A stretch of 64,000 bases of DNA, from assembly GCF_000184745.1 (NCBI RefSeq), contig NC_014931.1:3968001-4032000 (forward strand). The letters are read 5' to 3'. The number at the start of each line of letters is the position of its first letter. Position 1 is the first letter of the stretch. A program made the position numbers and the translations under genes. Of this stretch, positions 51,736-62,000 are shown piece after piece. The notes below the pieces were generated by a model, which saw only the letters and a program-made list of their open reading frames with translations, made no database searches and was not told the DNA's origin. Origin of the DNA: Variovorax paradoxus EPS (GTDB lineage: Bacteria > Pseudomonadota > Gammaproteobacteria > Burkholderiales > Burkholderiaceae_C).

Positions 51736-53568
51736 TCAGGCCGCCTTCTTTGCTGGCGGCAGGTCGGTGCAAGTGCCGTGCGCCACTTCCGCCGCCATGC
51801 CGATGCTTTCGCCCAGCGTCGGATGCGGATGGATGGTCTTGCCGATGTCGATCTCGTCCGCACCCATCTCGATGGCCAGCGCGATCTCGCCGATCATGTC
51901 GCCCGCATGCGTGCCGACGATGCCGCCGCCCAGGATGCGATGCGTCTCGGCGTCGAACAGCAGCTTGGTGAAGCCCTCGTCGCGACCGTTGGCGATGGCG
52001 CGGCCCGAAGCGGTCCACGGGAAGTGGCCCTTCTTGACCTTGATGCCTTCGGCCTTGGCCTGGTCTTCCGTGAGGCCGACCCACGCCACCTCGGGGTCGG
52101 TGTAGGCGACGCTCGGGATCACACGGGCGTTGAAGGCGGCGCTGGAGAGCTCCTTGTCGCCCTTCTGCTCGCCGGCGATCACCTCGGCCGCCACATGGGC
52201 CTCGTGCACCGCCTTGTGCGCCAGCATGGGCTGGCCCACGATGTCGCCGATGGCGAAGATGTGCGGCACGTTGGTGCGCATCTGGATGTCGACCGGAATG
52301 AACCCACGATCGCTCACCGTGACGCCGGCCTTCTCGGCGCCGATCTTCTTGCCGTTGGGGCTGCGGCCCACGGCCTGCAGCACCAGGTCGTACACCTGCG
52401 GCTCCTTGGGCGCGTTCTCGCCCTCGAAGGTGACCTTGATGCCTTCCTTCGTGGCTTCGGCGCCGACCGTCTTGGTCTTCAACATGATGTTGTCGAAGCG
52501 CGGTGCGTTCATCTTCTGCCAGACCTTCACCAGGTCGCGGTCGGCGCCCTGCATGAGACCGTCGAGCATTTCGACCACATCGAGGCGCGCGCCCAGCGTC
52601 GAATACACCGTGCCCATTTCGAGGCCGATGATGCCGCCGCCCAGCACGAGCATGCGCTTGGGGTCGGTGCCCATTTCGAGCGCACCGGTGGAATCCACGA
52701 TCCGCGGATCGCCCTTGGGCATGAACGGCAGGCTGACCGACTGCGAGCCGGCCGCGATGATCGCGTTGCGGAATTTGACGGTCTGCTTCTTGCCGGTGGT
52801 GTCCCAGCTGGTGCCGGAGGTTTCTTCGACTTCCAGGTGGTACGGATCGATGAAGTTGCCCACGCCGCGCAGCACCGTCACCTTGCGCATCTTGGCCATG
52901 GCCGTGAGGCCGCCGGTGAGCTTGCCCACCACTTTGTTCTTGTGGCCGAGCAGCTTGGCGCGGTCGACCGTGGGCGCGGCGAAGCTCACTCCCAGGTCGG
53001 CGAAGTGCTTGACCTCGTCCATGACCGAAGCCACGTGCAGCAGCGCCTTCGAGGGGATGCAGCCGACGTTCAGGCACACACCGCCGAGGGTGGCGTAGCG
53101 CTCGATCAGCACGACCTTCAGGCCCAGGTCGGCCGCGCGGAAAGCTGCCGAATAGCCGCCGGGGCCGGCGCCGAGCACGATCACGTCGCACTCGACATCG
53201 ACCTTGCCGCCATAGGTGGATGCGACAGGCGCTGCGGCCGGAGCTGGCGCAGGTGCCGCGGCCTTGGGCGCAGGAGGCGCTGCGGCAGGCGCCGGCGCAG
53301 CGGCGGCCGGAGCAGCAGCCGCGGCAGCCCCCTCCACCTCCAGCGTCAGCACGACCGAGCCTTCCTTGACCTTGTCACCCACCTTCACGGCAATGGCTTT
53401 CACCACGCCGGCCGCAGACGACGGAATCTCCATCGAGGCCTTGTCCGATTCGACCGTGATCAGCGACTGCTCGGCCTTGACCGTGTCTCCGACATTGACC
53501 AGCACCTCGATCACCGCGACTTCGTCGAAGTCGCCGATGTCGGGCACCTTGATTTGTTGTTCGCTCAT
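51736..53568 (-). CDS. lpdA: dihydrolipoyl dehydrogenase (E3) of pyruvate dehydrogenase, with N-terminal lipoyl domain
   Basis: A 610-residue E3. Residues 1-80 are a lipoyl domain (lipoylated Lys43 in E-S-D-K-A) and residues 81-120 an Ala/Pro linker; the rest is the flavoprotein, with FAD motif G-A-G-P-G-G-Y-S, redox cysteines C165/C170 in [14 protein letters not shown] motif G-G-G-I-I-G-L-E and C-terminal H-P-H-P-T-L-G-E. The lipoyl extension is known in betaproteobacterial and neisserial PDH E3. The ATG overlaps the stop of the preceding proteasome-like gene (ATGA). Confidence 0.95.
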
Positions 53569-54158
53569 TTGGACACTTTCAGTTTGAGTGTGAGAACGTC
53601 GACCGGTGGGGCCGAATTGCGATCGAATTCGCAGGCGGCGGCGATCCCCGCCTCCGCCACGTCGCGCGCGCTGCGCGACTTGATGTCATAGGCCGCGTGC
53701 ATGGCGCCGAGCGCAAAGCTGCGTCCCGAACCGATGGCCCAGAACTCCTTGAACTCGAACACCTCGCGGTAGCTGTAGATGCCGTAGATGCCGCTCTGGT
53801 TGGCCATCAGCATCGTGAACTGGCTCGACTCGTAGGGCTCGTGGTCGTCTTCCTTGGTCTGCATGAAGAACGAGTCCTTGAGCACCGGATGCAGCATCGT
53901 GAAGGTGCGGAAGATTTCGTGCTTGCTGCCGAACAGGAGCTTCTCGCGCTCCTGCGCGGCCAGCGCGTGCTGCAGCACCAAAAAATGGGCCGCGGCGCCG
54001 GCCATGGCGAACAGGCTGGTGCCCGCCGCGTCCTCGACGGTGAAGATCTTCTGGTTCTTCTCGGCGCGGTGCGAGAGCCGCGTGTCGCCGAAGGTCACCA
54101 GTGAATCGGCTGCCATCGTGACCTGGCCGCCTTTGCGGACGGCCACTACGGTGGTCAT
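53565..54158 (-). CDS. HslV/proteasome-like Ntn hydrolase, probable betaproteobacterial proteasome homologue (BPH)
   Basis: A 197-residue protein beginning M-T-T-V-V-A-V-R. Removal of Met would expose a catalytic N-terminal Thr, as in HslV and proteasome beta subunits. Counting that Thr as 1, the proteasome residues Asp17 (M-A-A-D-S) and Lys33 (R-A-E-K-N) fall exactly in register, and A-I-G-S-G-R-S-F-A matches the HslV I-G-S-G turn. It is longer than HslV and has inserts around residues 90-125. I assign it to the BPH group, which forms double rings without a known ATPase. Both ends overlap neighbours as ATGA, coupling it to aceF and lpdA. The cellular substrate is unknown. Confidence 0.85.
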
Positions 54159-55834
54159 AGCAGGATTCGACGGTAGTCCGCGAGCACTTGCCCAAGGTAG
54201 GCGTTGAAGCGCGCAGCCAGAGCCCCGTCGATCACGCGGTGGTCGTAAGACAGCGACAGCGGCAGCGTCAGGCGCGGCACGAACTGTTTGCCGTCCCACA
54301 CCGGTTTCATCTGGCCCTTGGAGAGGCCGAGGATGGCCACTTCGGGGGCGTTGATGATGGGCGTGAAGTGCGTGCCGCCGATGCCGCCGAGCGAGCTGAT
54401 CGACATGCAGCCGCCCTGCATGTCGGCCGAGCCGAGCTTGCCGTCGCGCGCCTTCTTGGCGAGCTCGCCCATCTCGGCGCTGATCTGCAGAATGCCCTTC
54501 TTGTCGGCATCTTTCAGCACCGGCACCACGAGCCCGTTGGGCGTGTCCGCCGCGAAGCCGATGTTGAAGTACTGCTTGTAGACGAGCTGGTCGCCATCCA
54601 GGCTGGCGTTGAAGTCGGGGAATTTCTTCAGCGCCGCGACCACCGCCTTGATCACGAAGGCCAGCATCGTGACCTTCACGCCCGACTTTTCGTTCTCCTT
54701 GTTGGTGGAGACGCGGAAGGCCTCGAGCTCGGTGATGTCGGCTTCGTCGTTGTTGGTGACGTGCGGAATCATCACCCAGTTGCGGTGCAGGTTCGCGCCG
54801 CTGAGCTTCTTGATGCGCGATAGGTCCTTGCGCTCGACCGCGCCGAACTTGGCGAAGTCGACCTTGGGCCACGGAATGAGGCCCAGCGCCGCGCCATCCG
54901 CGCTGCCACCACCGGCCGGCGCCTTGGCCGCCGAGGCCTTGGTGCTGGCCTGGCCGCTCATCACGGCCTTGGTGAAGCCCTGGACGTCTTCCTGCGTGAT
55001 GCGGCCCTTGGGACCGGAGCCCTTGACCTCTTCGAGCGGCACGCCGAGTTCGCGGGCGAACTTGCGTACCGACGGCGAAGCGTGCGGCAGGTTGGCGCTG
55101 GGCGCCGTGGTGGGATCGTGCGGTGCAGCGGCGGCTGCCGGGCTTGCGGCCGGCGCCGGCGAAGCAGCGGCCGGCGCGGGGGCGCTGGCGGTTGCCGCGG
55201 CCGGGGCTGCTGCGGCAGCTTGCGCAGGCGCGGGTGCGGCAGCACCTGCCGAACCTTCCAGGATCGCGATCAGGTCACCGATGTTGACCGTGTCGCCGAC
55301 CTTGACCTTGAGCTCCTTCAGCACGCCGGCACCCGACGACGGAATCTCCATCGAGGCCTTGTCCGACTCCACCGTGATCAGCGACTGGTCGGCCGCGATC
55401 GTGTCGCCGGGCTTGACCAGCAGTTCGATGACCGCGACGTCCTTGAAATCGCCGATGTCCGGCACCTTGATCTCGACCGGTCCGGAGGCTGCTGCGGGCG
55501 CGGCAGCCGGTGCAGGCGCCGTGGCTGCGGGTGCCGGAGCGGCAGCCGCAGGAGCCGGAGCTGCTGCAGGCGCGGGGGCCGGTGCGGCGGCGGCACCTTC
55601 GGCCTCCAGCACGAGCACCACCGAGCCCTCTTTCACCTTGCCGCCGATCTCGACCTTGATTTCCTTGACCACACCGGCCGTCGAAGAAGGAATCTCCATC
55701 GACGCCTTGTCCGATTCCACCGTGATGAGCGACTGCTCGGCCTTGACCGTGTCGCCCACCTTCACCAGCACCTCGATCACCGCGACTTCATCGAAATCGC
55801 CGATGTCCGGCACCTTCACTTCCACTGCTGCCAT
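54155..55834 (-). CDS. aceF: dihydrolipoyl acetyltransferase (E2) of pyruvate dehydrogenase
   Basis: A 559-residue E2 that passes the acetyl group to CoA. Two lipoyl domains are visible, with lipoylated Lys43 and Lys159 in E-S-D-K-A. Long Ala/Pro linkers (80-117, 200-250) separate them from the subunit-binding domain (about 256-292; [13 protein letters not shown]) and the catalytic core (about 325-559) with [12 protein letters not shown] 55834 follows the aceE stop by 49 bases. Its stop is part of the next gene's start (ATGA). Confidence 0.96.
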
Positions 55835-55883: not shown

Positions 55884-58613
55884 TCAAGCGTAGAGCGGGT
55901 TGACCTTGTCGACATTGATGCCGTACTTCTTGATCGCTTCCACCACCTTGGCCACCGGCACGGTGCCATCTTCGCTCAGCGCCTTGAGCGCGGCCACCAC
56001 GATGTAGTGACGATTGATCTCGAAGTGTTCGCGCAGCTTGTTGCGGAAGTCGCTGCGGCCGAAACCGTCGGTGCCCAGCACCTTGTAGGTGCGGCCCTTC
56101 GGAATGAAGGGGCGGATCTGTTCCGCATAGGCCTTCATGTAGTCGGTCGATGCGACCACCGGGCCGGTCGTGGGCGCGAGTTGCTCGGCCACGAAGGGCA
56201 CGCGCGGGGTCTGGTCGGGGTGCAGCAGGTTCCAGCGGTCGGCGTCCTGGCCGTCGCGGGTGAGCTCGTTGAAGCTCGGGCAGCTCCACACGGAAGCCGA
56301 CACGCCCCAGTCCTTCTCGAGCAGCTCTTGCGCCGCGAAGCTCTCGCGCAGGATGGTGCCGCTACCGAGCAGTTGCACGGTCGGCGCTTCCTTGCTGCCC
56401 TTGGCGGCCTTGACCACCGGCCCCTGCTTGGACAGGTACATGCCCTTGATGATCTGCTCTTCGGTGCCGGGCTGCAGGCCTGGCATCGCGTAGTTCTCGT
56501 TCAGCAGCGTCAGGTAGTAATAGACGTTGTCCTGCTTCTCGACCATGCGCTTCAAGCCATGGTGCAGGATCACGCCGACTTCGTGCGCGAAGGTCGGGTC
56601 GTAGCTCACGCAGTTCGGGATGGTGTTGGCCAGGATGTGGCTGTGACCGTCTTCGTGCTGCAGGCCTTCGCCGTTGAGCGTAGTGCGCCCCGAGGTGCCG
56701 CCCAGAAGGAAGCCGCGCGCCTGCATGTCGCCGGCCGCCCAGGCCAGGTCGCCGATGCGCTGGAAGCCGAACATCGAGTAGTACACGTAGAACGGCACCA
56801 TGATGCGGTTGTTCGTGCTGTACGAGGTGGCCGCCGCGATCCAGCTGGACATGCCGCCGGCCTCGTTGATGCCTTCCTGCAGGATCTGGCCGGCCTTGTC
56901 TTCCTTGTAGTACATGACCTGGTCTTTATCGACCGGGGTGTACTGCTGGCCTGCGGGGTTGTAGATGCCGATCTGGCGGAACAACCCTTCCATGCCGAAG
57001 GTGCGGGCTTCGTCCACCAGGATGGGCACCACGCGCGGACCGAGCGCCTTGTCGCGCAGGAGCTGCGTGAGGAAGCGAACGTAGGCCTGCGTCGTCGAGA
57101 TCTCACGGCCTTCGGCCGTGGGTTCCATCACCGACTTGAAAGTCTCGAGCGAGGGCACCGTGAAGCTCTCGTCGGCCTTGGTGCGGCGGTGCGGCAGGTA
57201 ACCGCCCAGGGCCTTGCGGCGCTCGTGCAGGTACTTCATTTCCGGGGTGTCGTCAGCCGGCTTGTAGAACGGCAGGTCGGCGATCTGGCTGTCCGGGATC
57301 GGGATGTTGAAGCGGTCGCGGAAGGCCATGATGTCCTCGTCGCTCAGCTTCTTGGTCTGGTGGACGTTGTTCTTGCCCTCACCGATCTTGCCCATCCCGA
57401 AGCCCTTGACCGTCTTGATCAGGAGCACCGTGGGCTGGCCCTTGTGCTTGACGGCCGCGTCGAAGGCCGCGTAGACCTTCTGCGAGTCGTGGCCGCCGCG
57501 GCGCAGCTGCCAGATGTCGTCGTCGCTCATCTTGGCGACCATCTCCAGCGTGCGCGGATCGCGGCCGAAGAAGTGCTTGCGTACGTAGGCACCGTCGTTG
57601 GCCTTGAACGACTGGTAGTCGCCGTCGTTCGTCTCCATCATGATCTTGCGGAGGGCCCCTTCCTTGTCGCGTGCTATCAACTGGTCCCAGCCGCTGCCCC
57701 AGATCAGCTTGATGACGTTCCAGCCCGAGCCGCGGAATTCGCCTTCCAGTTCCTGGATGATCTTGCCGTTGCCGCGCACCGGGCCGTCCAGGCGCTGCAG
57801 GTTGCAGTTGATGACGAAGACAAGGTTGTCCAGGCCTTCGCGCGCTGCGAGGCCGATGGCGCCCATCGATTCGACTTCGTCCATTTCGCCGTCGCCGCAG
57901 AACACCCAGACCTTGCGGTTCTCGGTGTTGGCGATGCCGCGGGCATGCAGGTACTTGAGGAAACGAGCCTGGTAGATGGCCATCAGCGGTCCGAGGCCCA
58001 TCGACACCGTGGGGAACTGCCAGAACTCGGGCATCAGCTTCGGATGCGGGTAGCTGGAGAGACCCTTGCCGTCCACTTCCTGGCGGAAGTTGAGCAGTTG
58101 CTCTTCGGTCAGGCGGCCTTCAAGGTAGGCGCGGGCGTAAATGCCGGGGGAGACGTGGCCCTGGATGTAGAGGCAGTCGCCGCCGTGGTTTTCGCTCTCG
58201 GCGTGCCAGAAGTGGTTGAAGCCGGCGCCGAACATGTTCGCCAGCGAGGCGAAGGAGCCGATGTGGCCGCCGAGGTCGCCGCCTTCAGGGGGATGGTGAC
58301 GGTTGGCCTTGACCACCATCGCCATCGCGTTCCAACGCATGTAGGCGCGCAGGCGCTCCTCGATCTCGAGGTTGCCGGGGCAACGCTCTTCCTGATCGGG
58401 CTCGATGGTGTTGACGTAGGCGGTGTTGGCAGAGAACGGCTTGTCGATGCTGTGCTGCCGGGCATGTTCGAGCAGCTGCTCGAGAAGGAAGTGGGCCCGC
58501 TCCGGACCCTCGCTCTGGATGACGGAGGACAGTGCATCCATCCATTCACGGGTCTCCTGGGCGTCCGCATCGTTTGCGGCCGAGCCGAACAGGTTCTCGG
58601 GATTTGCCGACAT
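55884..58613 (-). CDS. aceE: pyruvate dehydrogenase E1 component (homodimeric type)
   Basis: A 909-residue thiamine-diphosphate enzyme that decarboxylates pyruvate and acetylates the E2 lipoyl arm. The TPP motif runs from [10 protein letters not shown] to V-I-N-C-N, and [10 protein letters not shown] and [13 protein letters not shown] are typical of the AceE family. G-G-A-G with strong A-A-A lacking rules out the alpha2beta2 form. AAAAGGAGA precedes the ATG. It heads the aceE-aceF-BPH-lpdA operon and is divergent from a two-component system across 217 AT-rich bases. Confidence 0.97.
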
Positions 58614-58830: not shown

Positions 58831-61371
58831 ATGCCCCTCTCCTCCCCGCTGGCGGTTGCCCGCAGTGCCGTGAATGCCTCGCCGCTCTCCTGGTGGCGCC
58901 GCTGGTGGCGTCGACAAACGCCGGTCCTGCAGGACGCGGTCGCCATGCTCGCGCCGATGGCGGCAGTGCTGCTTTTCCTCGCGGCCATCGTTTCCGCTTT
59001 CTGGTATCTGCGAACCGAGGAAGTCGAGCGCGAGCAGGAGTCGGTACGCCGCGACGTCGAATACGCCCAGCAGCGCATGCGCCTTCGGTTGCTGGAGCGC
59101 CAGGAACAGTTGATGCGCATTGCGCGCGATGCGTCCAACCGCGAGATCGACCCGACCGAGTTCACGAGCCGCGCCGAATCGCTCGTGAGCCAGTTCCCCG
59201 AGTTGCAGACCATCACCTGGATCGACGACCGCCGCCGCTTCAAGGCCGGCTATGCGGCGCCCAGCGTGCATCCCGCGCAGCAGCACCTGATCGGCGACGT
59301 GCTGCGGCCCGGCGACATCGAAAGCAACTACGCCCTGGCGCGCGAACTGCGCCAGCCGGTGTATTCGCAACCCGTGGCCGGCGGCGATCCGGCCGCGATG
59401 CTGCAGTTGCACATTCCTCTTTTCGATCAGGGCCTGTTCGCGGGGGTGGTGCTCGGCGAGTTCTCGGTCGATGGGCTGCTGCGCTACGGCATGCCTTCTG
59501 AAGTGCAGGCGCGCTACGCGGTCTCGCTGCTCGACGCCAAGGGCAACGTGATCGCCGGCAACACGACCAACCTGAAGGACAGCGGCACGCGGCTGCTGCC
59601 CTGGTCGGAGCGCACCAACGAATACGAGGTGCCCGTGTCCCCCGTCGGCAATGCGCTGATCCTGCGTGCGCAGGCTTACCGCACCTCGCAGGGCGTGGTG
59701 GGCAACGGCCTCTTCTGGCTGGTCTGCGCGCTCAGCGTGCTCACGAGCTGGATGCTGATCGGCACCTGGCGCCACACGCGCCGACGGCTGCAGGCCCAGC
59801 AACGCCTGGTCGCCGAGACGAATTTCCGCCGAGCAATGGAAAACTCCATGCTGACCGGCATGCGCGTGCTCGACCTGCAAGGCCGCATCACCTACGTGAA
59901 CGCCGCGTTCTGCGCGATGACCGGCTGGAGCGAAGCCGAACTGGTCGGCCAGTCGCCGCCCTTTCCCTACTGGCTGGAATCCGACCGCGAAGTGATGAAC
60001 GAGCGGCTCGAAGAAGAGCTGCACGGACGCGCCCTCCCCGGCGGCTTTCAGGTACGCGTGAAGCGCAAGAACGGCAGCGTGTTCAACGCCCGCCTCTACG
60101 TCTCTCCACTGATCGATGCGCGCGGCCATCAGACCGGCTGGATGACGTCGATGACCGACATCACCGAGCCGACGCGCATCCGCGAGCAGTTGTCGGCGTC
60201 GTACGAACGCTTCACCACGGTGCTCGAGGCGCTCGATGCGGCGGTGTCGGTCGCGCCCATCGGCAGCGAGGAACTGCTGTTCGCCAACAAGCTGTACCGC
60301 CTCTGGTTCGGCTCCGACACCGTGGGCCACTTGGGCATGGTGGCGCAGGCCGGCGTGCCGGCGTCGAACGCGCACGACGAGGGCCTGGACGACGTGGACC
60401 CGTACGCCGGTCTTCCCATCGACACGCTCACCGCCGCGCAAGCCGCCAACAACGAAATCTTCGTGCCGCACCTCGGCAAATGGCTCGAAGTGCGCTCGCG
60501 CTACCTGACGTGGGTGGACGGCCGTCTTGCGCAACTCGTGATCGCCACCGACATCACGCCGCGCCGCGATGCCGAGGAGCAGGCAGCCGCGCAGGCGGAC
60601 AAGGCCCAGGCCGCGAGCCGCCTGATCACGATGGGTGAAATGGCATCGAGCGTGGCACACGAACTCAACCAGCCGCTCACGGCCATCACCAACTACTGCA
60701 ACGGGATGATGTCGCGCATCAAGGGGCAGACGATCGACACCGAGGCGCTGCTTGCAGCGCTGGAGAAGACATCGAAGCAGGCCCAGCGCGCCGGCCAGAT
60801 CATTCAGCGCATCCGCTCTTTCGTGAAGCGCAGCGAACCGAACCGCACGCCTGCCGACGTGGCCACCATGGTGAGCGAAGCCGTCGAGCTCGCGGGCATC
60901 GAGCTGCGCCGCCGCAACGTGCGCCTGAACCACTACGTGGCCGCGCGGCTGCCGGTGGTGCGGGTCGATCCGATCCTGATCGAGCAGGTGATGGTCAACC
61001 TGCTGAAGAACGCGGCCGAATCCATCGACCTCGCCGACCGGCCGCTCGCGCGCCGCAGCGTCGAGCTGCGCGTGCTGCCCAAGACCATCGAGGGGCAGAA
61101 CGCCATCGAGTTTTCGGTGCAGGACACGGGCAAGGGCCTGTCGCCCGAAGTCATGGACCGGCTGTACGAAGCCTTCTTCTCCACCAAGCCCGAAGGCATG
61201 GGCATCGGGCTGAATCTGTGCCGCACCATCGTCGAGTCGCACCGCGGCCGGATGCAGGCGGAGAACATCTACAATGGCCCGGATGTGATCGGATGCCGTT
61301 TTTCCTTCTGGATTCCGGTGTTGGACGCTATCAGTTCCGTAGCTAGCGACGAGGCAAAGGTACCTGCATGA
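58831..61371 (+). CDS. membrane-bound PAS-domain sensor histidine kinase (FixL/DctB-like)
   Basis: An 846-residue sensor kinase. Two transmembrane helices (about 38-60 and 291-312) enclose a periplasmic sensor domain of about 230 residues. Two PAS domains follow (about 332-450, with I-T-Y-V-N-A-A-F-C-A-M-T-G-W, and about 455-585). The kinase core comes next: phospho-acceptor H610 in V-A-H-E-L-N-Q-P-L, N box L-L-K-N-A-A-E-S, and G boxes D-T-G-K-G-L and G-M-G-I-G-L. The stop overlaps the response-regulator start (ATGA). The ligand is unknown; the position beside aceE suggests a carbon or redox signal, which is inference. Confidence 0.93.
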   Translation: MPLSSPLAVARSAVNASPLSWWRRWWRRQTPVLQDAVAMLAPMAAVLLFLAAIVSAFWYLRTEEVEREQESVRRDVEYAQQRMRLRLLERQEQLMRIARDASNREIDPTEFTSRAESLVSQFPELQTITWIDDRRRFKAGYAAPSVHPAQQHLIGDVLRPGDIESNYALARELRQPVYSQPVAGGDPAAMLQLHIPLFDQGLFAGVVLGEFSVDGLLRYGMPSEVQARYAVSLLDAKGNVIAGNTTNLKDSGTRLLPWSERTNEYEVPVSPVGNALILRAQAYRTSQGVVGNGLFWLVCALSVLTSWMLIGTWRHTRRRLQAQQRLVAETNFRRAMENSMLTGMRVLDLQGRITYVNAAFCAMTGWSEAELVGQSPPFPYWLESDREVMNERLEEELHGRALPGGFQVRVKRKNGSVFNARLYVSPLIDARGHQTGWMTSMTDITEPTRIREQLSASYERFTTVLEALDAAVSVAPIGSEELLFANKLYRLWFGSDTVGHLGMVAQAGVPASNAHDEGLDDVDPYAGLPIDTLTAAQAANNEIFVPHLGKWLEVRSRYLTWVDGRLAQLVIATDITPRRDAEEQAAAQADKAQAASRLITMGEMASSVAHELNQPLTAITNYCNGMMSRIKGQTIDTEALLAALEKTSKQAQRAGQIIQRIRSFVKRSEPNRTPADVATMVSEAVELAGIELRRRNVRLNHYVAARLPVVRVDPILIEQVMVNLLKNAAESIDLADRPLARRSVELRVLPKTIEGQNAIEFSVQDTGKGLSPEVMDRLYEAFFSTKPEGMGIGLNLCRTIVESHRGRMQAENIYNGPDVIGCRFSFWIPVLDAISSVASDEAKVPA

Positions 61372-62000
61372 GTTTGATTCCGAAGAAGGGCACGGTCTAT
61401 GTCGTCGACGACGACGAAGCCGTACGCGATTCGCTGCAATGGCTGCTCGAAGGCAAGGACTACAGAGTCCGCTGTTTCGATTCCGCCGAATCCTTTCTCT
61501 CCCGATACGACCCGCGCGAAGTCGCCTGTTTGATCGTCGACATCCGCATGGCCGGCATGACCGGCCTCGAATTGCAGGATCGGTTGATCGAGCGGCGCTC
61601 CCCGCTGCCGATCGTGGTCATCACCGGTCACGGCGACGTGCCGATGGCGGTCGACAGCATGAAGAAGGGCGCGATGGATTTCATCCAGAAGCCTTTCAAC
61701 GACGAAGAACTCGTCACGCTGGTCGAGCGCATGCTCGAACATGCGCGCGGCGCGTTCACACAGCACCAGCAGTCGGCCAGCCGCGACGCGCTGCTGTCCA
61801 AGCTCACCGGCCGTGAGGCGCAGGTGCTCGAGCGCATCGTCGCCGGCCGCCTGAACAAGCAGATCGCCGACGACCTGGGCATCAGCATCAAGACGGTGGA
61901 GGCGCACCGCGCCAACATCATGGAAAAGCTCAACGCCAACACCGTGGCCGATCTGCTGAAGATCGCGCTCGGCCAAGCGGCCCCTGCTGCCAAGGCCTAG
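61368..62000 (+). CDS. FixJ/NarL-type response regulator
   Basis: A 210-residue regulator. The receiver domain (about 8-125) has the acidic pocket D14-D16 in V-D-D-D-E, phospho-acceptor D58 in L-I-V-D-I-R-M, the T of V-I-T-G-H-G-D and the conserved Lys in I-Q-K-P-F. The C-terminal LuxR-type HTH (about 140-200) includes L-T-G-R-E-A-Q-V-L and [19 protein letters not shown]. It is coupled by ATGA overlap to the kinase, so they are a cognate pair, FixL/FixJ-like in layout. Target genes are not visible from sequence. Confidence 0.94.

Follow-up and report, generated by a model that had tools for sequence, protein, structure and literature searches.

We find that Variovorax paradoxus EPS encodes, between the genes for the E2 and E3 subunits of pyruvate dehydrogenase (PDH), an orthologue of the betaproteobacteria proteasome homologue (BPH) in which the active site Thr1/Asp17/Lys36 is conserved. 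We read this protein as a general, dispensable, ATP-independent chambered peptidase whose location in the PDH operon serves mainly to keep its co-expression steady, and we assign this reading a probability of about 0.5; a PDH-specific role appears unlikely. The gene lies in a window of 64,000 nucleotides (contig NC_014931.1, positions 3,968,001 to 4,032,000), the whole stretch of DNA analysed, in whose numbering all coordinates below are given.

The BPH gene within the PDH operon

An earlier note on this DNA had described a 197-residue frame at 53565-54158 between aceF and lpdA, leaving its strand unstated. The frame is intact and runs on the minus strand (54158..53565, 197 codons, with a Met-Thr start and a TGA stop); the plus-strand reading of the same interval contains a stop. 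The E1, E2 and E3 genes, confirmed by Pfam, follow one another in order on a single strand, with BPH set between the E2 stop codon (54157-54155) and the E3 ATG (53568-53566) and overlapping each neighbour by four bases, in the ATGA motifs that the note had reported. The features on the minus strand are as follows, the aceF start having been picked by eye at the Met preceding AAVEVKV (the listed frame starts at 55969).

51736..53568, minus: lpdA, PDH E3 with an N-terminal lipoyl domain, 610 aa (Pfam)
53565..53568, minus: ATGA overlap of the BPH stop and the E3 start (sequence)
53565..54158, minus: BPH, 197 aa (translation, Pfam, solved relatives, AlphaFold, Foldseek)
54155..54158, minus: ATGA overlap of the E2 stop and the BPH start (sequence)
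54155..55834, minus: aceF, PDH E2 with two lipoyl domains, an E3-binding domain and a catalytic domain (Pfam)
55884..58613, minus: aceE, PDH E1, 909 aa (Pfam)

Both E2 and E3 bear long Ala/Pro-rich linkers. Adjoining the operon and divergent from it is a gene for a PAS sensor kinase with a FixL-like kinase domain (58831-61371), which overlaps by four bases a gene for a LuxR-type response regulator, recognized by eye (61368-62000); this pair is a possible regulator of the PDH operon.

Fold, active site and closest relatives

The protein contains a single Pfam family, PF00227 (E = 4.7e-11), and among solved structures it matches the BPHs 5ovu (E = 5.5e-59) and 5ovs (E = 2.4e-31) more closely than the best HslV (E = 3.6e-07), an assignment far beyond chance. 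The earlier note had called it a BPH/HslV-type Ntn hydrolase and had named a predicted structure lacking the Ntn fold as the outcome that would count against this; the AlphaFold model (mean pLDDT 86.9, from a 17-row alignment) has the proteasome-type Ntn fold and matches 5ovu first in Foldseek (5.4e-22), followed by 5ovs (2.2e-17). The pore loop is the least certain part of the model, with pLDDT below 50 at residues 101-104 and 108-110 (Met = 1).

HslV (ClpQ) shares the parent fold and the active-site plan, but the HslV, archaeal and bacterial proteasome models match the protein weakly and far below their cut-offs (for HslV, 45.2 against 137 and 43.3 against 157.75 bits), and the gene adjoins those for PDH E2 and E3 rather than hslU. 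A true HslV is encoded separately in the V. paradoxus EPS genome. Replacement of HslV by BPH was considered and rejected: of the relatives that carry BPH, 62 of 64 also have HslV, as do 30 of the 37 that lack BPH. Published work on BPH, cited here in part, describes double rings of 14 subunits whose inner surface is acidic, the double heptameric arrangement being known for two orthologues, and reports the loss of HslU-binding residues (PMC5777263).

The elements of the active site and pore map to the minus strand as follows.

54153..54155, minus: Thr1 codon, predicted N-terminal nucleophile after Met removal (translation; Thr in 35/35 PDH-clade representatives)
54105..54107, minus: Asp17 codon, active-site aspartate (D in 50/50 loci and 105/106 representatives)
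54048..54050, minus: Lys36 codon, catalytic lysine, equivalent of proteasome Lys33
53823..53861, minus: acidic pore loop, residues 99-111 with the Thr after Met as 1 (translation; a loop of this kind is described in the cited part of PMC5777263)

As the note had observed, Thr directly follows the start Met, with no propeptide, and Asp17 is in register; together with the long acidic pore loop these are features of BPH. The catalytic lysine had been placed at position 33. A lysine does stand there, but within a set of 50 BPH loci, 30 of which come from the search of the organism's own genus, K33 occurs in just 2, whereas K36 is invariant (50/50 loci and 106/106 representatives). We identify K36 as the catalytic lysine because it aligns with Lys-37 of the Thiobacillus BPH, which is named as the counterpart of proteasome Lys-33 in the cited part of PMC5777263. 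Across the 106 representatives, 21 positions are kept at 97% or more, among them K8, D17, K36 and, flanking the pore loop, H89, K93, E109 and S110. These positions, catalytic and pore-loop residues included, are common to all four of the operon-context clades set out below, which argues for one common chemistry, as judged from sequence.

Comparisons within the genus give BPH a median dN/dS of 0.19 (440 non-independent pairs from 31 sequences), which places the gene under purifying selection in the genomes that carry it. A reading of synonymous constraint, suggested by fourfold-site divergence below that of E3 in 363 of 378 pairs, was dropped because block profiles placed inflated flanking values in the Ala/Pro linkers; the E2 and E3 dN/dS values share this inflation and were left unused.

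The closest solved relative, Cupriavidus metallidurans BPH (PDB 5ovu), has the same fold, Thr1, Asp17, later Lys and acidic pore loop, but is 48% identical over the Foldseek alignment and lacks four residues (41-44) present in the V. paradoxus EPS protein; its gene is in a PDH operon, the E2-BPH-E3 order being unstated in the part of PMC5777263 cited. Thiobacillus denitrificans BPH (PDB 5ovs, 5ovt) shares the fold and active site but is only 36-37% identical (Foldseek), occurs in an argG context (PMC5777263, in part) and, by eye, carries ARG-clade motifs.

PDH-linked loci are uniform across the lineage

Within the genus, 46 of 61 genomes carry BPH, V. paradoxus EPS among them, as do 18 of 40 genomes belonging to other families in the order. 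Within the family, 71 of 300 genomes gave a match, one of them a fossil; of the 70 near full-length matches, 69 were taken in (G338 was left out). All 69 have frames of at least 190 codons, and in 68 BPH is preceded by E2 (at most 192 bp away) and followed by E3 (at most 175 bp away), all three on one strand; the remaining locus is cut by a contig end. Among the best 80 of 426 confirmed stretches with named hosts (Variovorax, Xenophilus, Ramlibacter, Polaromonas, Curvibacter and others), both flanks are visible in 76, the other four being cut by contig ends. The proposed conservation of aceF-BPH-lpdA is thus borne out in this lineage, and PDH-linked BPH also occurs elsewhere in the order, under another five family codes (f3, f8, f10, f21 and f32).

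The ATGA overlaps are a narrower trait. In the genus they occur at 25 of 31 loci on one side and 30 of 31 on the other, whereas among 125 further PDH-linked loci, a set that counts some genomes twice, they occur in 21 and 25 of the 124 measured. The coupled translation of the three genes that the earlier note had proposed accordingly fits the double overlap usual in the genus but does not extend to the wider lineage, and tight translational coupling would be a feature local to the genus.

One genus locus in a fragmented genome (L025) has a BPH frame between E2 and E3 that stops after 129 residues, reflecting either decay or a sequence error. Two BPH-less genus genomes (G005 and G008; loci L174 and L175) carry a second E2-E3 pair with no BPH between, whose E3 is 67-73% like the PDH E3.

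Other clades keep BPH in unrelated gene contexts

We next consider loci beyond the family. The order-level search found BPH in 107 of 299 genomes, and all 107 were classed by neighbours: Hsp33 downstream (48), argG upstream (27), PDH (12), Hsp15 downstream (12) and unclassed (8). Of the unclassed loci, two lie at contig ends, one follows GluQRS, as happens in Hsp33-type relatives, and five have other neighbours, these five being split three and two between a pair of family codes. At many argG loci the distance is 300-620 bp, which leaves a common transcript uncertain there. Hsp33, Hsp15, ArgG, ArgF and ArgD were named on example loci and located at the others by tblastn. Operon contexts of this kind were reportedly described earlier by Valas and Bourne (2008). 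The cited part of PMC5777263 gives three prevailing contexts: PDH in C. metallidurans, argG in T. denitrificans and Hsp33 in L. hongkongensis.

The class-level search gave matches in 33 of 281 genomes, own included, and the remaining 32 all lie outside the order. Thirty of these were covered (G766 and G795 were left out): 22 loci place BPH beside ribD and/or ribE, 21 of them between both (L272, 1-3564, and 20 further loci among L269-L291), and eight lie elsewhere. Within the roughly 1.5 kb fetched, nrdR stands upstream in 20 of the 22 riboflavin-type loci and ribBA downstream in 19; NCBIfam identified NrdR, RibD, RibE and RibBA on L272, and tblastn located them at the other loci. Ser replaces Thr1 in all 22, as it does in four of the eight other class-level loci and in one of 27 of the arg type. 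We found no description of a riboflavin context for Ser1 BPH in the literature searched, including the available part of PMC5777263; a literature search linking the proteasome with aceF or lpdA likewise gave nothing related, as judged by title. In two loci (L292 and L295) BPH immediately follows nrdR, but neither ribD nor ribE was found next to it, a partial riboflavin-type context. The single arg-type protein with Ser1 (L045, 8026-8601) lies inside the order of V. paradoxus, whereas Ser1 BPHs are placed outside the betaproteobacteria in the cited part of PMC5777263. A phylum-level search matched 17 of 397 genomes, including four weak matches (E about 8e-4); the genomes drawn included many near relatives, and no new context emerged.

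BPH contexts are therefore clade-specific and functionally unrelated: PDH, Hsp33/Hsp15, argG and riboflavin. The earlier note had held that the PDH link would be undone if the gene adjoined aceF in this lineage alone and was placed at random elsewhere; BPH indeed adjoins aceF in one clade only, but its contexts elsewhere are mostly non-random.

A probable single entry into the PDH operon and frequent changes in presence

In a BPH tree of 119 representatives (<80% identity, from 325 sequences) plus HslV, built by a quick method, the PDH-linked rows form one clade (35 rows, support 97), consistent with a single entry into the PDH operon. HslV serves solely as a very long outgroup branch, so the tree adds little on the closeness of BPH to HslV. 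The Hsp types are not a single clade, and the riboflavin (RIB) branch has support 83. The four contexts need three changes, the minimum, with Hsp33 and Hsp15 joined and 13 other-context rows left out; counting all groups apart and other-context rows included, 12 changes are needed against a least possible six.

Presence of the gene is less stable than its position. On an E3 tree of 128 rows (88 with BPH, 39 without and one fossil, thinned at 93% identity from 225; quick method, no outgroup), BPH presence changes 21 times, at least 14 of these being forced by well-supported branches. The BPH-less sample comprised 16 genus genomes, all 15 of those lacking BPH in the genus search and one from the family search, and 30 of 229 BPH-less family genomes, one per genus (19 listed as BPH-less and 11 inferred so), and yielded 44 loci with a PDH-type E3, in 42 of which the E2-E3 junction is visible. 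The two genes lie at most 135 bp apart in 41 of the 42, and no BPH trace was found in any of these 42 junctions. The exception (L223, 810 bp) has an unrelated ORF of about 240 codons where BPH would be; with another ORF in only this one of 42, the junction was rejected as a general insertion site.

In the fossil locus (L188, 7158-7307), whose genome has no full-length BPH, only about 30 residues from the BPH C terminus survive between E2 and E3, and the E3 groups with that of a BPH-bearing Polaromonas (support 97, E3 tree). The change counts are compatible with loss or with regain by recombination; we favour loss as the probable course because the PDH clade is single, the site is fixed and this fossil remains.

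Discussion

Under our preferred reading, by analogy with the solved orthologues, Met would be removed to expose Thr1, 14 subunits would assemble into a double ring that encloses the active sites and is fed by no ATPase, and the acidic pore loop would help to select the substrate. Substrates may be unfolded chains or short peptides, processed by identical chemistry in all BPH lineages. An ancestor would have entered the housekeeping PDH operon and gained steady co-expression there, with PDH not marked as a substrate. In favour of a general peptidase are the catalytic and pore-loop residues common to all four clades, the functionally unrelated contexts and their three changes, the close apposition of E2 and E3 in BPH-less loci alongside the 21 presence changes and the L188 remnant, purifying selection within the genus, and the co-occurrence of HslV. 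Published biochemistry, as far as the cited part of PMC5777263 goes, adds that epoxomicin binds an exposed and reactive Thr1, that pulldowns of C. metallidurans BPH, itself of the PDH-operon type, contained neither PDH subunits nor HslU, and that no partner ATPase was found. Several points tell against it. Standard peptides and casein were uncut and carbonylation patterns unchanged in the same source; transient substrates would be compatible with the negative pulldowns; and, if expression alone mattered, occasional relocation would be expected, whereas clade context is nearly always kept, a pattern that would suit a functional tie between BPH and its host operon. The count of 12 changes against a minimum of six, with other-context rows included, also weighs against it.

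Such a tie could take two forms. PDH turnover, quality control or sensing, which the earlier note had drawn from the gene's position, would have BPH clear damaged or unassembled E2 and E3, or clip their flexible linkers, alongside synthesis. The nearly universal E2-BPH-E3 order in the family, the overlaps in most of the genus and the long linkers speak for it, but the inference from position gives way: a PDH-specific role is unlikely because the same enzyme sits in other operons and its presence often changes while E2 and E3 remain adjacent. The overlaps are not general beyond the genus, and the PDH-free pulldowns of the C. metallidurans orthologue (PMC5777263, in part) run counter to the proposed role, which we judge improbable. 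A broader form, in which four unrelated kinds of housekeeping operon each took in BPH as a resident protease, kept or lost but rarely moved, made with and acting on nascent or damaged host products, with a Ser1 form in the riboflavin operon and co-residence under selection, is a tentative and rather unlikely option. It draws on the strongly clade-bound contexts (three changes among the four, other-context rows aside) and on the scarcity of other ORFs at BPH-less junctions. Yet the host products have no evident property in common, eight of the 107 order-level loci are unclassed (the two contig ends, the GluQRS neighbour and the five others), a shared transcript is uncertain at the wider argG distances, and operon inertia accounts for persistence equally well. 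A specialized enzyme acting on a single motif, perhaps a transpeptidase or ligase rather than a degrading protease, would explain inertness on standard peptides and casein despite a reactive Thr1, and connectase, a proteasome homologue acting as a ligase, provides a precedent (PMC8665760, in part). The closed ring with inward-facing active sites (PMC5777263, in part) nevertheless suits degradation, and neither motif nor partner is known, making this option distinctly doubtful.

The presence of BPH in a PDH operon and its ring structure are already published in kind (PMC5777263, in part). New here are the riboflavin context of the Ser1 clade and, from sequence comparison, the apparently clade-bound contexts with a probable single PDH entry and frequent changes in presence. 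BPH is a proteasome relative with solved structures whose substrate remains to be found, and our survey weakens the tempting inference that PDH is its dedicated target. Close relatives with and without BPH, their E2 and E3 genes otherwise adjacent, together with the Ser1 riboflavin clade form a natural experiment, and comparison across clades combined with these natural absences offers a direct route toward BPH function.
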